Of a DNA stretch of 64,000 nucleotides, positions 23,141 to 34,914 are shown one piece after another (position 1 is the first letter of the stretch; each line of letters starts with the position of its first letter). The position numbers and the translations under genes were made by a program. This stretch comes from Pirellulaceae bacterium (GTDB lineage: Bacteria > Planctomycetota > Planctomycetia > Pirellulales > Pirellulaceae): assembly GCA_016784735.1 (NCBI GenBank), contig JADHUC010000005.1, positions 1 to 64,000 of the forward strand, read 5' to 3'. The notes beneath the pieces were generated by a model that worked only from the letters and a program-made list of their open reading frames with translations, had not been told where the DNA came from and did no database searches.

Positions 23141-25086
23141 CGCGCAGAACTGGCGAGTTACTTTGGCACACGTTACTGCGAGCAAGTGACGAGCAACCCA
23201 TGTTGCACGACGCACTGAAAATCGGGCCCCGCATCACGGCGTTGCCGATCATCTACGGCAGCGGCGATTTTGCGCTCGAAGTGCGCCGCGTGATGCTCGA
23301 CCACCGTTTCGATTGTCTGGCCGTGCCACTACCGCCTTCGTTCCAGTACGACGTGGAACGAGCGATCGAGCTTCTGCCCACGCCCACTTTGGTCACGCAA
23401 GCCGAGAACCCGCTTTTTCGAACCGAGTGGACACCGGAGTCCGACCTGGACCCAGATGACGACGACGAGGGCGATCGAACGCTCAGCTATGTGCCGATCG
23501 ATCCTTGTCAGGGCGTAATCATGGCCCTGCGCATCGCGATGGGGGAACACTTGCCGCGCCGGTTCGTCGACCTGGAGACATCGCAGTTCGAGCCGCACAG
23601 CGCCGTGCTTCCAGATCCGTACGCCTTGAAGAAGGTCGCCATCGAACGATTCGCGGCAGCCCTGCTACCGCACATCGGCCGATTGCCGTCCGGACAGCCG
23701 CAGGATCGTGTTGTTCACATGGCCGAGCGACTGCGGGACTTGGAGAAGCGTTACAAATCGATCCTGTTCGTGTGTTCCGTGTTGGATTGGCCGTGGGTCC
23801 GAGAAGCGTACATGGAGCGTACGCCGTCGGTCGCCGAAGACGACGTGGTGGAATCCACGGTGACGTATCAAGCCAGCCTGCGAACACTGGTTTTCCTGCT
23901 GGGCGAGTTGCCGTTCATCACGGGACTGTACGAACGGGCGCGAGCCGAATTGGAGGACGACGAAAACCTGTCGATAGACGGCGTGAAGGAGTTACTGCTC
24001 ACCGCACGCTCCTCCTATCTGGCCGAGTTCAAGGGTCGCGCACGTAAAATCACACCACATCTGTTGTCGCAGTGCCTGAAGTACATCCGCAACCTGTCGT
24101 TGATCGAACGACGCATGACGCCCGACTTGTACAACCTGGTGATCGCCTCCAAACAGGTCTTCGGTGACCAGTATGCAATTCACGTGGCGGAAAGGGCCCG
24201 CGACTATCCGTACGAAGAAGACACGGAATTCGAAACGGTCAAACTGGGCATCGAGCAAGCCGAATTGCCCGACGGCGACATTGTCGAACTGGTCAGCCGT
24301 TTGCCCGGTCCGCCCGTCGTCTGGCGTAGCTGCGATTTGCGGCGCCGTCCGGAGCGCGAGGAAGTCGAACGCTGGAGCATGCAATGGAACCCGTTCTCGC
24401 AATGCAGTTGGCCGCCGGAGGATGATCTGATCGAGGACTTCCGCACACATGTCTTCGATCGCGCAAAGACGGTGATGGGCGCCGATTTGGCCCGATCCGA
24501 GAAATTCACCACCAGCGTCATGGACGGCATCGACATCCGAGAGACGTTGCGACACTGGTACGATGGCGACATCTACGTCAAAGTGCTACCCCCTGCCCGT
24601 GGCGACCTTGATTGCGCAGTCATGCTGTTCGATTCGCCAGCCGACCCTCGCGATTATCCTTGGCGGACCACGTGGTACGCCGAGCACGACATGGAGTCGA
24701 CGCTGGCCTTCTTTGCCACCGACTTTCGCCAAGAGCCGGTTGGACCGGGCATTTGCCTGGCCACCTACGGCGGGGCGCTGTTCCTGTATCCGCCGGTCCA
24801 CATCGACGACGTGTGGACCGACCGCCGACTGGACTTCACCGAAACGATGGAGGAACGGTTGCTGGCTGCGGCTTGCCTGCACAGCCGTTCGAAGCACATC
24901 GCATTGCTCAGTCCCCTGCCGCCCGGCGCCGGGTGGCGACGGCTGGCACGACGCTTCAAGAAGAACTGGGTCCATCTGCCGCTCGGCCAGTTCAGCGACT
25001 CGACGGTTCAGCAATTGCGGATCGTCCACGTGCTGAACGGCAAGCAGGTCCGCAGCTACGCAGCCCAGTTCATTCGGCGGGCGTGA
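22990..25086 (+). CDS. MoxR-associated protein of unknown function
   Basis: This is a 698-residue protein in the longest frame (GTG 22990). The first ~50 residues are encoded by the repeat at 22988-23140, so ATG 23200 (MLHDALKIG, 628 residues) is a plausible true start. The segments LDHRFDCLAVPLPPSFQYDV, YVPIDPCQGVIMALRIAMG and RFVDLE resemble the TraB/ChaN/DUF5682 type fold, which also pairs with MoxR ATPases; this is weak similarity by eye. The rest is alpha/beta without metal-binding or catalytic motifs I recognise. The 3' end overlaps the convergent carbonic anhydrase gene by 17 bases. Confidence 0.7.
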   Translation: MPLLGIERAIHGTRLTTIPSSAAPPASATLLETMESDRTWWALVVSSSGTPRRTGELLWHTLLRASDEQPMLHDALKIGPRITALPIIYGSGDFALEVRRVMLDHRFDCLAVPLPPSFQYDVERAIELLPTPTLVTQAENPLFRTEWTPESDLDPDDDDEGDRTLSYVPIDPCQGVIMALRIAMGEHLPRRFVDLETSQFEPHSAVLPDPYALKKVAIERFAAALLPHIGRLPSGQPQDRVVHMAERLRDLEKRYKSILFVCSVLDWPWVREAYMERTPSVAEDDVVESTVTYQASLRTLVFLLGELPFITGLYERARAELEDDENLSIDGVKELLLTARSSYLAEFKGRARKITPHLLSQCLKYIRNLSLIERRMTPDLYNLVIASKQVFGDQYAIHVAERARDYPYEEDTEFETVKLGIEQAELPDGDIVELVSRLPGPPVVWRSCDLRRRPEREEVERWSMQWNPFSQCSWPPEDDLIEDFRTHVFDRAKTVMGADLARSEKFTTSVMDGIDIRETLRHWYDGDIYVKVLPPARGDLDCAVMLFDSPADPRDYPWRTTWYAEHDMESTLAFFATDFRQEPVGPGICLATYGGALFLYPPVHIDDVWTDRRLDFTETMEERLLAAACLHSRSKHIALLSPLPPGAGWRRLARRFKKNWVHLPLGQFSDSTVQQLRIVHVLNGKQVRSYAAQFIRRA

Positions 25087-25744
25087 CCGCGGCGGCCGAC
25101 TCGGCAATCCGGGCAACAGCCGCCTCACAACGAGCTGCAATGTCGTCCTCGCCCGTCAGGCAAACATCCAGGTCTCTGAGCAACCCGTCTTTGATGTCGT
25201 AGATCCAACCGTGCAGCGCCGTTTGCTGACCGCGAGACCACGCATCTTTCACGATGTTTGTAGTGCACAGATTGTCGACCTGCTCGATTACGTTCAACTC
25301 GCAAAAAATGTTCGCCTTCAGATCGGCGTCAGCGACCGACTCCAACAAGTCGCGGTGCTTCTCCCGGACATCGACGGCGTGTTGGAGCCAATGATCGATC
25401 AATCCCATGCGGTCATTCCGCAGGACCGCGAGTAGTCCGCCGCAACGATAATGGCCGCAGACAATCACATGTTTAACCTGCAGGACGTCCACCGCATATT
25501 GGAGGACCGAAAGACAGTTCAGGTCCGTATGCACAAAAAGGTTGGCCACGTTGCGATGCACGAAAAGCTCGCCCGGCAACAGGCCCACTATTTGATTGGC
25601 CGGAACGCGACTATCCGAGCAGCCGATCCAAAGGATCTCCGGGAACTGTCCTTCCGCGAGACGCTCGAAAAACGTGGCGTCTTTCGCGAGCATTTGTTCA
25701 ACCCACGCTCGGTTGTTGTCAAAAAGGTGCCTGAGCTGCCGCAT
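25070..25744 (-). CDS. can: Beta-class carbonic anhydrase
   Basis: This 224-residue protein is similar in length and sequence pattern to E. coli Can. Zinc ligands Cys42, His98 and Cys101 are in CSDSR and CGHYRCGG, and the Asp44-Arg46 dyad is intact. FVHRNVANL and HTDLNCLSVLQYAVDVL complete the signature. It interconverts CO2 and bicarbonate. The gene is convergent with and overlaps the MoxR-associated gene at 25070-25086. Confidence 0.96.
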   Translation of the reverse strand: MRQLRHLFDNNRAWVEQMLAKDATFFERLAEGQFPEILWIGCSDSRVPANQIVGLLPGELFVHRNVANLFVHTDLNCLSVLQYAVDVLQVKHVIVCGHYRCGGLLAVLRNDRMGLIDHWLQHAVDVREKHRDLLESVADADLKANIFCELNVIEQVDNLCTTNIVKDAWSRGQQTALHGWIYDIKDGLLRDLDVCLTGEDDIAARCEAAVARIAESAAAVTPAE

Positions 25745-27908: not shown

Positions 27909-27965
27909 AACCCGAAGCGTAAGCGAGGGACTTCTCCGAGGATTCCCTCGCTTACGCTTCGGGTT
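27909..27965. repeat. Perfect 22-bp inverted repeat, AACCCGAAGCGTAAGCG family, copy 1
   Basis: Arms 27909-27930 and 27944-27965 are perfect reverse complements with a 13-base loop. Translated, the arms read TRSVSEG or NPKRKRG, peptides that recur in spurious planctomycete ORFs. A related imperfect copy is at 55348-55415. It follows the beta-helix gene by 80 bases. Confidence 0.9.
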
Positions 27966-28070
27966 TCGATGCTGTCACAGACTGTGTAGCTTGAACAAAT
28001 CAAATGCCCTGGCGATCGCCGGTCAATTGTGGACGAGTCCAGGCTGACATGGTAGGGTGAATGGCATGGC

Positions 28071-28094: not shown

Positions 28095-28207
28095 CTTTTC
28101 TGGCCGTAATGCTAGTCTGACGCGTTAGTCCAAATCGAGTTGGCAGGACGGGGCGTTCCCGCCCGCGATGGTTTCACCGTTCCCCCGGATAATGTGAGGA
28201 GTTGAGC

Positions 28208-29449
28208 ATGCGTTCTGTTATGGTTTTCTCGGGTGCGGCAATCCTGGCCGCCTGGGCGTTGGTCGCCGAGGCGGGGGAGTTGGCTGCACCGGTCCACGTG
28301 ATGTCCGACGGCCAGCCGCTTGACGTCGGCGGCATCGGATATGCCGCCCCGTTCATGGGCGACTACGACGGCGACGGCGTGCGCGATCTTTTGGTGGGTG
28401 TGTTTTCTGAAGGCCGATTGCGGATCTATCGCAATCTTGGCACAAACGCGAAGCCGAAGTTTGGCGGCTACGAGCAGTTCAAGGGCGGGGCCGAAACCGG
28501 TCGCGTCCCGGCTGGATGATGCATCGGTTTCACTCCCATGTTGGGAGATTTCGACGCCGACGGTGATTTGGACGTGCTTTCGGGATCGTATCCAGGGGAA
28601 CTGTATCTATTTCGACGAAACGCAGACGGCTCGTTCGCAGATGGCGAGACGCTGAAGGACCGCGACGGCAATGCCATCAAGGCAGACAAGGCATCGACCG
28701 TCTTCTTGGCCGACTGGGACGCCGACGGCGATCTGGACATGGTACTGGGCAGCATTCGAGGCGATGTGTACTTGGTCATCAACGAAGGCGCCGCCAAAGC
28801 GCCGGAATTCGGCAAGCCGGTCAAGTTGGACTTGGATTTGGCGGGTAGCAATTCGGGACCGATCGTGGCCGATTGGGACGGCGACGGCTTGGCTGATTTG
28901 TTGGTCGGCCTGAGCGACGGCAGTGCCCATTGGCTCCGCAACGTCGGCACCGCCGAAAAGCCCAAATTCGCTTCGAGCGAGACGCTGGTGGAAAAGAGTG
29001 GCTTTGGCTTCCGATTCGAGGATCGCAAGCCGGGACAGTGGGGGGCTCGGGTCAAACTGTGCGCAACGGATTTCAACGGCGATGGACGACTCGACTTGCT
29101 CTTGGGTGATCGCTCTGGTGACGTCGTTGAACCCGAGATGACGGACGAGCAGCGGCAGGCCTACGATAAAGCGAAGCAACAAATGGCCGAGCTTATGAAA
29201 CAGCGTGCCGAGGCCTCGGCCAAGTTGATCAAACTGCAACGGGAGAGTCGGAACGCGGAGAAGCCGGCGACTGACGAAGATCGTCAGCGGGCGAAGGAAA
29301 GAGCCAGCGAACTGCAAGAGTTGGTGAAAGGGTTGCAGAAGCTGAACACCGAATACGCCGCTTGCAGCCAGAAGCTCCGTGAGTTCGGCCCACAGAAGGT
29401 CAGACACGGTTTCGTCTGGTTCTTCCAGCGCAAGCCGAAAGCCGAGTAA
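28208..29449 (+). CDS. FG-GAP/VCBS repeat protein, candidate selenoprotein (in-frame TGA at 28517)
   Basis: This frame of 413 codons has a signal peptide (VMVFSGAAILAAWALVAEAG) and FG-GAP calcium-binding loops DYDGDGVRD, DFDADGDLD, DWDADGDLD, DWDGDGLAD and DFNGDGRLD. A coiled-coil C-terminus starts near residue 310. The single in-frame TGA is codon 104, in GRVPAG-TGA-CIGFTP. Both sides keep the same frame and domain rhythm, and the next codon is Cys. A 6-bp stem with a UGU loop starts 14 bases after the TGA (28533-28547), near the bacterial SECIS format. So it may be read as selenocysteine; a nonsense mutation is the alternative. GAGGAG lies 6 bases before the ATG. Without readthrough only 103 residues are made. 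Confidence 0.7.
28533..28547 (+). promoter_or_regulatory. Candidate bacterial SECIS hairpin
   Basis: CTCCCA (28533-28538) pairs perfectly with TGGGAG (28542-28547) around a TGT loop. The loop starts 20 bases after the TGA at 28517-28519 and has G as its second base. Known bacterial SECIS elements have a short stem within roughly 16-37 bases of the UGA and a G among the first loop bases, so it fits. A stem this short can occur by chance. Confidence 0.45.
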
Positions 29450-29520: not shown

Positions 29521-29643
29521 TTGTGTCGCGGTCTCCCCTGTTGTGTCGCGGTCTCCCGACCGCGACACGCGTGCGACCGCAGGTCTCCAAGAATCCGGGG
29601 AGACCTGCGGTCGGCGAGTGGTCCGGTCGGGAGACCGGACCAC
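29521..29643. repeat. Cluster of three hairpins with a 17-bp direct repeat
   Basis: A 17-base direct repeat (29521-29537 and 29541-29557, TTGTGTCGCGGTCTCCC) leads into three perfect hairpins: 29543-29553 with 29558-29568, 29574-29588 with 29599-29613, and 29618-29628 with 29633-29643. All share GGTCTCC/GGAGACC-like cores. It fills the gap between the FG-GAP gene and the gene starting at 29678. Confidence 0.9.
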
Positions 29644-32550: not shown

Positions 32551-34914
32551 ATGAGGAACATTTGTGCGGTCTTAGGTTGTGGAATCATGATGGTGAGTAT
32601 GCTGGCGGCGGTGGGTCGTTCGGCAATGGCTGCACCGCAGGGCGTGACGCTGGTCAAAGACGGTCGATCCCACACAGCGATTTACGTTACCGAGCGCATT
32701 ATGGCCGAGGATAAACAGACGCAGGGGCAGAAGCGTCAGGCCGTCAAGCTGGAGCAACAGCGTCGTCGCTTGCGGGAATCGGTGCGCGACTTGGCGCGGT
32801 ACATGGAAAAGATGTCCGGTGGCTCGGTGAAGGTCCATACGGGCGAACCGACCGAGTCCGAGAAGACCCTGGTTCCCATTTTCATCGGCGAACTGGCCCA
32901 AGAACGCTTTGGCCAGCCGCAGAAGAAGTGTGTATACGACCAGGGCTTTCGTATCGTTGTCAAAAGCGATGCGGTCGGCCTGATCGGCGAATCGGACCTG
33001 GCGACAAGCTATGCGATTTACACTCTTCTCCACGATTTGGGCTGTCGGTGGTACGTGCCCGGCGAGATCGGCGAAGTCATCCCACGAGAAGCAAGTATTG
33101 TCTTGCCCAATCAGGATACCGCCAACGCACCGTTTACATATTATCGCGGGATCTGGTATGCCGACGACGCCTATAAACGTCGCAATCGAATGGGCGGTCT
33201 GCGTCTGAACGCCGGCCACGCGCTGGAGCGGTATATCACGGCCCAGCAACGCGAGGAGCATCCCGACTGGCAGGCCACCATTAACGGCAAGCCTCATCAC
33301 AGCCGTCTCAAGTGGAGTCATCCCGGCGTGGCCAACGCCATCGCCGATGAGCTGATCGCGCGACAGGATAAGGACCGTGTTGACAGCCTGTCGCTTTCAC
33401 CCGGCGACGGGGCTGCGTTCGACGAATCGGCCGAAGACCGGGCGCTGGACGCCGGCGACATCGACCCGACGATGAACGTGGTATCCCTGACCGATCGTTT
33501 TCTTTCGCTGACGAACCGCATCGCGGAGAAGGTCACGGCCAAGCATCCCGAGACGCTTTTCGGCATGCTCGCGTATGTGCAGTACACACGTCCGCCACTG
33601 CGTGAAAAGGTTCATCCGGCGATTATTCCGCAGATCGCGCCGATCACCTATTCGCGGCATCGCCCGATGAGCGACACGCAAAGCCCCGACGGCAAGAATT
33701 TGCTTGAACTGGTCGAAGGCTGGGGCCGGAAGGCGCGGTTCACGTCGTATTACGCCTATGCGTACAACCTCGCCGATACCGGTACGCCCTGTCCGTTCCT
33801 GACCAAGTGGGGCACGGACACGCCGATCGTCTTCGCCAACAACTGCCGCCTTTGGCAGCCCGAAACCACGCCGAATTTCGAAACGGCCATGCACGCTTTG
33901 TATATGGCCAATCGTCTCGCCTGGGATCCCAGCGAAAAGCCACAGGAGATCTACGACGAAATCAACGCAAACTTCTACGGTGCTGCTGCCGAGCCGATGA
34001 GCCGTTACTGGAAGATCATTGACGACGCGTGGATCATGCCTGACGATCACTCCGGCTGCACGTTCGGCCACCTGCGACGCTTCACACCCGAAGTGATGAA
34101 AGCCGCCCGGCAGGCCATCGACGACGCCGTCGCGGCGTGTAAGACCGTGACCGAGTATCGTCGCGTTGAAATGGTCGACTGGTCGCTGCGGATGCATGAA
34201 CTGTTTATGAAAATGAAGCGGGACCTTGCCGAGGGACGGTTTGCGAACCTCGCCGCCGACGCGGATCTTTACATGGGCACGATCAAGGGCCTGGCCAAAC
34301 GCTATGCCGACAACTACGCCTTTTCCGGTGCACCCTGGACCCGTGACGATTGCAGCGTCAACGTGCGGTATTTCAAGTGGTTCAATCTCAAGACATACGA
34401 AGACGCGACTCGCATCGCCGACCGTCGCAGCTTCGCCATGCTGACGCGCAAGCCCCTGCGCGACTGGAAAATCCAGTCTGACCGAGACGACAAGGGGCTC
34501 GATGCGGGCTGGCAGAAGGTTGATTTCGACGACAAGTCATGGGGAACGACCGACGTCGCTGTCGATACGTGGTCGGCGATCGGTTACCACGATTACTTCG
34601 GAACGATGTGGTATCGCACCGCCGTCCAAACGCCCGCCGCCCCCAAGGACAAGAAGGTGTATCTCTGGATCGCCGCTACCGACGGTCCGGTTCGCGTGTT
34701 TGTTAACGGCAAACACGTTCCGTTTATCAATGACGATGGCGAGTCGCTCGATGAGGCTACCGGCTACTGCAAGCCGTTCTCGTTCAATATCACCAGCGTG
34801 GTCGAACCCGGGCAGCAGAACGTCATCGCCCTACGCTGCACGCGAGCCGTCCCACCTAACGAAATCGGCACCGGTGGGCTGCTTGGACCCGTAGCGATCT
34901 ATCGACAGAATTGA
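32551..34914 (+). CDS. Secreted DUF4838 protein, glycosidase-like
   Basis: This 787-residue protein has a signal peptide (GCGIMMVSMLAAVGRSAMAA). An N-terminal alpha/beta domain (YVTERIM, LARYMEKMSGG, IFIGELAQERFG, GFRIVVK, ATSYAIYTLLHDLGCRWYVPG) is the GH20/GH67-type N-terminal fold. The DUF4838 core follows (HPDWQATINGKPH, SLSPGDGAAF, FGMLAYVQYTRPPL, DIL-like AFGAPWTRDD). The last 150 residues (WQKVDFDDKSWGTTDVAVDTW, VRVFVNGKHVPF) are a galactose-binding-like domain. It is probably a glycosidase, but no catalytic acid can be assigned. GGGAGG lies 8 bases upstream, and the sialidase-like gene follows after 10 bases. Confidence 0.85.
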   Translation: MRNICAVLGCGIMMVSMLAAVGRSAMAAPQGVTLVKDGRSHTAIYVTERIMAEDKQTQGQKRQAVKLEQQRRRLRESVRDLARYMEKMSGGSVKVHTGEPTESEKTLVPIFIGELAQERFGQPQKKCVYDQGFRIVVKSDAVGLIGESDLATSYAIYTLLHDLGCRWYVPGEIGEVIPREASIVLPNQDTANAPFTYYRGIWYADDAYKRRNRMGGLRLNAGHALERYITAQQREEHPDWQATINGKPHHSRLKWSHPGVANAIADELIARQDKDRVDSLSLSPGDGAAFDESAEDRALDAGDIDPTMNVVSLTDRFLSLTNRIAEKVTAKHPETLFGMLAYVQYTRPPLREKVHPAIIPQIAPITYSRHRPMSDTQSPDGKNLLELVEGWGRKARFTSYYAYAYNLADTGTPCPFLTKWGTDTPIVFANNCRLWQPETTPNFETAMHALYMANRLAWDPSEKPQEIYDEINANFYGAAAEPMSRYWKIIDDAWIMPDDHSGCTFGHLRRFTPEVMKAARQAIDDAVAACKTVTEYRRVEMVDWSLRMHELFMKMKRDLAEGRFANLAADADLYMGTIKGLAKRYADNYAFSGAPWTRDDCSVNVRYFKWFNLKTYEDATRIADRRSFAMLTRKPLRDWKIQSDRDDKGLDAGWQKVDFDDKSWGTTDVAVDTWSAIGYHDYFGTMWYRTAVQTPAAPKDKKVYLWIAATDGPVRVFVNGKHVPFINDDGESLDEATGYCKPFSFNITSVVEPGQQNVIALRCTRAVPPNEIGTGGLLGPVAIYRQN

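Follow-up and report, generated by a model that had tools for sequence, protein, structure and literature searches.

An FG-GAP propeller family with a putative selenocysteine-cysteine pair in Planctomycetota

Known selenoproteins and the locus analysed

Adjacent cysteine and selenocysteine (Sec) residues are found in mammalian thioredoxin reductase, which carries a Cys-Sec pair in the motif GCUG. The selenoproteins SaoC, SaoL, HgcA, and MbdU also have adjacent Sec and Cys residues (CU or UC), as is predicted for the proteins described in this work; the folds differ and the motif alone is alike. A propeller tied to selenium and to thiol chemistry is represented by SELENBP1, a copper-dependent thiol oxidase (PMC10362175), which differs from the family described here in that its selenium is bound post-translationally, with no UGA-encoded Sec, and with which no homology was seen. 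The catalogue of May 2026 comprises 119 prokaryotic selenoprotein families, none of which is an FG-GAP or propeller protein (PMC13188914). According to the bacterial SECIS (bSECIS) model given there, the hairpin has a loop of 3-9 nt with a G within the first two positions, a spacing of 16-37 nt, and an MFE <=-7.5. Concerning planctomycetes, the main text of a previous report names fdhA, fmdB, and others as selenoproteins and does not mention FG-GAP (PMC4807772). We found no relevant literature linking selenoproteins or selenocysteine with FG-GAP, a mention in supplementary tables or in Haft and Tolstoy 2025 being possible.

Within the window (i.e., the whole 64-kb stretch of Pirellulaceae DNA that was analysed), a first-pass annotation had indicated one gene as a candidate selenoprotein, and the coordinates that it gave are exact. 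A single frame of 413 codons runs from the ATG at 28208 to the TAA at 29447-29449, with a sole in-frame TGA (28517-28519) whose next codon is TGC (28520-28522). The features of the gene are the following:

28196-28201, forward strand: Shine-Dalgarno-like GAGGAG, 6 nt 5' of the ATG, read from the sequence
28208-29449, forward strand: predicted coding sequence of 413 residues with the UGA as Sec (U104), from the frame, the FG-GAP scores, and the homologues
28208-28273, forward strand: N-terminal hydrophobic stretch, residues 1-22, from sequence reading and the low-confidence N-terminus of the AlphaFold model; probably an export signal
28283-29137, forward strand: five FG-GAP blades, residues ~26-310 (Pfam PF13517 and PF01839; AlphaFold2)
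28517-28519, forward strand: UGA putatively read as selenocysteine (U104), from the TGA-TGY (147 loci) and Cys-Cys (13) counts at this column
28520-28522, forward strand: TGC, vicinal Cys (C105) of the putative Sec-Cys pair, from the sequence and the homologue column
28533-28547, forward strand: bSECIS-type hairpin of 6 bp with loop UGU, from the fold, the family comparison, and the limits of PMC13188914
29144-29386, forward strand: helical hairpin inside blade 5, residues 313-393 (AlphaFold2 secondary structure)
29393-29425, forward strand: C-terminal strands apparently closing blade 5, with the motif HGFVWFFQRK (family consensus HGWVWLYLRK)

As the first reading had it, the TGA has FG-GAP repeats before and after it, with scores above the Pfam cut-offs (PF13517, 93 bits; PF01839, 43 bits), and protein-like sequence is kept on either side; indeed, the amino-acid identity with the closest relative (L070) is 63% and 62% on the two sides, and third-position changes are in excess on both. 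The repeats place the protein among the FG-GAP/VCBS propellers (PF13517, PF01839), from which it departs in its five blades, in the helical insertion of blade 5, and in the Sec-Cys or Cys-Cys pair before blade 2. The genome from which the window comes (G000) harbors more than one U-C FG-GAP gene, that is, four paralogues including the window gene, the others being:

G000, contig C1, 8016-9194: U-C FG-GAP paralogue
G000, contig C8, 14649-15968: U-C FG-GAP paralogue
G000, contig C266, 6407-7315: U-C FG-GAP paralogue

Recurrence of the UGA and the downstream hairpin

Homologues were collected from one order, from a 392-genome sample of the phylum, and from a named collection of loci. At the column of the window's TGA, distinct loci have TGA-TGY in 147 cases (137 TGA-TGC and 10 TGA-TGT), Cys-Cys in 13, and few others, these counts including about 80 additionally fetched stretches plus the named loci; the other residues are a handful, in divergent members. 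The alignment is gapless around the site, with conserved flanks, and no stop other than TGA recurs at the column. This is in agreement with the pattern that had been anticipated for a Sec codon, i.e., UGA or Cys between conserved flanks. In the order sample (146 genomes), the best homologues have exactly one stop, which is TGA, falls at one column, and is invariably followed by Cys in the UGA forms, while Cys-Cys takes its place in four genomes (G127, G066, G055, and G037). With a profile built from eight members, the UGA form was retrieved in at least 92 of the 392 phylum genomes, representing at least 34 family-level groups; the form is also present in the class sample (G533), and its carriers include one-contig genomes (G504, G521, G533).

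The named relatives belong mostly to Planctomycetota. Beyond this phylum, UGA forms occur in bins that bear, as their depositors' own names, Akkermansiaceae (L093), Verrucomicrobiales (L096, L111), WOR-3 (L088), and Aegiribacteria/Fermentibacteria/Sabulitectum (L095, L099, L108, L125), and Cys-Cys forms in Kordiimonas gwangyangensis (L116) and in a gammaproteobacterial bin (L090). The idea of a Sec codon found support, and what the first-pass annotation understated is its extent, which is not a single gene but about 150 genes across the phylum plus a few other phyla. The Sec-Cys pair is not universal in the FG-GAP family, since three relatives have UGA on this column or close to it without the adjacent Cys (L072:9241, L076:2976, and L100:9208, with U-D, U-G, and C-U-A).

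These data bear on the possibility that the gene is a pseudogene or contains a sequencing error, the TGA being a nonsense mutation or a base-call error. The source bin (11.66 Mb, 78.7% complete, 5.5% contamination) is indeed fragmented into 450 contigs, and the 103 N-terminal residues alone would form no propeller, as a disrupted gene would have it. However, TGA followed by TGY is found in 147 loci, some of them from one-contig genomes, conservation is equal on either side of the TGA, all four paralogues of the window's genome carry it, and the hairpin described below is selected in TGA genes only. Because the TGA recurs at one column, this explanation is already refuted, and we assign to it a minimal probability. 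The normal terminator is itself TGA in 61 of 145 UGA-form genes, which implies that the recoding is local and the genetic code standard.

The 6-bp stem with a UGU loop that had been noticed at 28533-28547 lies exactly there: CUCCCA (28533-28538) pairs with UGGGAG (28542-28547) around the loop UGU (28539-28541). It begins 13 nt past the UGA, the distance from the UGA to the loop being 19 nt, and the loop G (28540) lies 20 nt past the UGA. With a fold of -14.1 kcal/mol over 46 nt, the hairpin falls within the bSECIS limits for loop, spacing, and energy. Among 200 dinucleotide shuffles, 18 were as good (z -1.6), so that the hairpin does not reach significance when taken alone, and its synonymous z of -1.4 indicates only moderate stability; the evidence for a SECIS comes from comparison.

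In the family, offsets 16-21 (counted from the T of the TGA) pair with offsets 27-32, and the loop G (G23) is present in 94%. The 3-nt-loop register of the window was rejected as the family register (48% paired), a register with a 5-nt loop, wider by two bases, being the common one (92% paired). In the window gene, Met-Leu-Gly takes the place of the Gln-x-Val seen in most members, yet the hairpin re-forms two bases narrower than the family register with the offset of the loop G unchanged. Synonymous codons were resampled over 27 nt, holding constant the protein and each gene's codon use; the mean z reached -2.40 for the 150 genes whose column has TGA, whereas the 13 Cys-Cys homologues gave +0.40 and 360 corresponding positions taken from other blades of the UGA genes gave -0.08. 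The Mann-Whitney p-values of these contrasts are 1e-54 and 5e-9. The wobble base of Pro is associated with the residue encoded by the opposite arm (Val accompanies CCA in 83 cases and CCG in 4, Ala accompanies CCG in 26 and CCA in none; p=1e-21). All these p-values are too small, as they ignore the relatedness of the sequences, and it is the direction of each contrast that counts. Pair counting on 28 diverse sequences gave 94% paired, with 16 cells changed on both sides and a covariation count above 500 of 500 shuffles and above every slid register. The hairpin is lost in L163, a Cys form nested among UGA forms, and a stable one is retained in the three relatives having UGA and no adjacent Cys (L072, L076, L100), which suggests that Sec may work there without a neighbouring Cys. 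As judged from these sequence comparisons, the hairpin is conserved at the RNA level in UGA genes, beyond the need of the protein.

Selenocysteine machinery and the history of Sec and Cys forms

The window itself harbors no Sec machinery, as had been observed, and ARAGORN finds no tRNA within its 64 kb; the machinery is present in the genome, which possesses a tRNA-Sec with anticodon UCA (Rfam, 69.9 bits; ARAGORN), selA (558 bits), and selD (356 bits). The latter has its own Sec-UGA in GUAAKLGPGDL and serves as a positive control, since this site is already known from selenoproteins:

G000, contig C57, 25796-26719 (L264): selD, containing a UGA

Of the four genes whose search had been suggested, selA, selD, and the tRNA-Sec gene (selC) were thus recovered, and no selB (TIGR00475, PF09107) turned up in the bin, which is 78.7% complete. 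The three genes found and the window, which belongs to contig C38, are on separate contigs of similar G+C (0.58-0.60). A weak SelD-family match (78.8 bits, under the cut-off) is located in the window at 1164-1928 on the reverse strand; its product is probably an AIR-synthase-type relative.

The distribution of the machinery follows that of the UGA form. In the 392-genome sample, selB is present, among the matches listed, in 83 of the 92 UGA-form genomes vs. 152 of the 300 others (p=5e-13), and in one (G331) of the seven Cys-Cys genomes. In the order sample, selA or selB exceeds the cut-off in 14 of 14 UGA genomes and in none of the four Cys-Cys genomes.

The same comparisons speak to a different possibility, namely that the TGA is a true stop, either read through in a regulated manner (e.g., as Trp) or followed by reinitiation at the ATG at 28538, with the production of two polypeptides. 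An ORF of 303 codons does start at this ATG downstream of the TGA. Nevertheless, the residue at the column in non-UGA relatives is Cys and not Trp, the Sec machinery is found in UGA-form genomes and is mostly absent from Cys-form ones, protein-level conservation extends over the codons from the UGA to the ATG (I/V-G-F-x-P), and the hairpin is within the bSECIS limits; we consider read-through or reinitiation extremely improbable. The comparison with other genomes revealed the recoded column and the hairpin of SECIS type, together with the co-occurrence with selB and, apart from selB, the machinery in the genome; it is nearly certain, in our opinion, that Sec would be inserted at the UGA at 28517-28519. 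This would occur through the standard bacterial route, relying on tRNA-Sec, SelA, SelD, and SelB, with the hairpin 13 nt past the UGA directing the insertion.

In a tree built with the Sec column masked and rooted at the midpoint, the Cys-Cys forms make up three clades (with 10, 2, and 1 members) nested in the UGA forms, and parsimony assigns UGA to the root with five changes in total. Sec is apparently the usual and ancestral state of the family, and it outnumbers Cys about 10:1 in the sampled sequences. A small side branch has either lost the pair (L042, L074, L079) or retained UGA with no Cys after it (L072, L076); L100, an NW-type member, has Cys-Sec-Ala. The dominance of Sec and the emergence of Cys inside Sec clades are the reverse of the pattern described for most families, so that the reasons for which a lineage retains Sec might be tested here.

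The family resembles the selenoproteins of the bSECIS/SelB type in its in-frame UGA, in the loop G about 20 nt further on, in the presence of tRNA-Sec, SelA, and SelD, and in having Cys homologues, and it differs from the 119 catalogued families in its FG-GAP fold and in the excess of Sec over Cys in the sampled sequences. Furthermore, no model of NCBIfam 20.0 scored over its cut-off for six members (the window protein and five others). The initial suggestion of a new selenoprotein family is in agreement with its absence from both resources; as far as checked, the mechanism of Sec recoding is known, and the family, its carrier fold, and its Sec-dominant distribution are new. Selenoproteins would thereby gain a large family, with a fold for which Sec had not been listed before. 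Annotation that takes TGA as a stop would divide each such gene into a short N-terminal piece and a truncated propeller, and the family would have been hidden in this way.

Propeller, fusions, and possible function

AlphaFold2, run on an 8-row alignment, returned a five-bladed propeller (mean pLDDT 85, pTM 0.78) with a helical hairpin within blade 5 and C-terminal strands that apparently close the ring. In this model, U104-C105 would lie in a long loop (residues 91-110) that leads straight into the innermost strand of blade 2 and has the lowest confidence of the whole propeller (pLDDT ~68-78). In propellers, the loops before the innermost strands open onto the central channel. His45 is conserved near the start of another inner strand, and, in subfamilies only, the same is true of Cys162 with His215 or of the Cys in AKIC. 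The best Foldseek and profile matches are FG-GAP/VCBS proteins (integrin alpha, ITFG2, CRTAC1). The nearest solved structures are five-bladed glycoside hydrolases (GH43, GH62, GH32; VIA-align Z 16-18.5), a similarity that we take to reflect the blade number and not the function.

According to Pfam, the window protein consists of FG-GAP domains alone, with no DsbD_N, thioredoxin, or peroxiredoxin domain. C-terminal fusions with DsbD_N (PF11412) or AhpC-TSA (PF00578), domains to which FG-GAP itself is unrelated, are present in several other members. A C-terminal domain of the DsbD N-terminal type, with a motif like C-x(3-5)-C-x-PP, occurs in eight members spanning several branches, one Cys form included; it is above the Pfam cut-off in four (L235, L174, L188, L083), below it in L043, and assigned by eye in L220, L225, and L226. 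One of the eight also embeds a peroxiredoxin domain:

L235 (genome G339, contig C7), 6081-8384, reverse strand: FG-GAP with U-C, DsbD_N-type domain, AhpC-TSA peroxiredoxin

The AhpC-TSA domain of L235 (111 bits when read through) has a second UGA at the expected active-site Cys (FYPKASTPG-U-T), so that this protein is a candidate three-domain double selenoprotein. Through the fusions with DsbD_N and with the UGA-peroxiredoxin, selenium may be connected in a concrete and testable way with the redox chemistry of the envelope in Planctomycetota.

Two roles might be imagined for the pair. One might be non-catalytic, with the Sec-Cys holding a soft metal or an organometal (of mercury, copper, or arsenic) on the surface of the cell. 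A vicinal CU is known from the organometal-related selenoproteins SaoL (MerB-like) and HgcA of the catalogue, FG-GAP propellers are frequently binding scaffolds, and a conserved operon partner is absent, all of which would suit such a role. Indeed, an all-against-all BLAST of the ORFs around 100 UGA loci disclosed no conserved neighbour genes or operon; what it returned amounted to shadows of the gene, antisense or in another frame, and to sporadic housekeeping genes. However, the same comparison of neighbouring ORFs revealed no recurrent metal-resistance genes, and the DsbD_N domains of eight members, one with a UGA-peroxiredoxin, speak for thiol-disulfide or peroxide chemistry. We judge a purely binding role rather unlikely.

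Since DsbD_N and a UGA-peroxiredoxin are found fused to the propeller, an envelope redox role is favored over simple binding, and we lean towards the Sec-Cys pair being a redox centre in an exported propeller. On this redox reading, the product would be an exported five-bladed FG-GAP propeller whose pair, placed before the inner strand of blade 2, might alternate between the selenol/thiol and the selenenylsulfide states; it might reduce a periplasmic substrate (a peroxide, a disulfide, or a metal/organometal species), with electrons supplied by a DsbD-type relay. Considered as a whole, it is very likely that the window gene encodes a selenoprotein, i.e., an exported FG-GAP propeller with a vicinal Sec-Cys pair, belonging to a family spread throughout Planctomycetota. 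Our confidence is evenly divided on the broader proposal that these would be the first propeller selenoenzymes, with Sec-Cys at the mouth of the channel, a DsbD-type relay, and an ancestral Sec, and that they may be among the commonest selenoproteins of Planctomycetota.

As regards the surroundings of the gene in the window, a beta-class carbonic anhydrase (Pro_CA; 25070-25744, reverse strand) and a DUF4838 protein (32551-34914, forward strand) are encoded, with no selenium link seen for either. Inverted repeats flank the gene, upstream at 27913-27967 (CCCGAAGCGTAAGCGAGGGA plus its complement) and downstream at 29524-29640 (of the GCGGTCTCCCGACCGC type).
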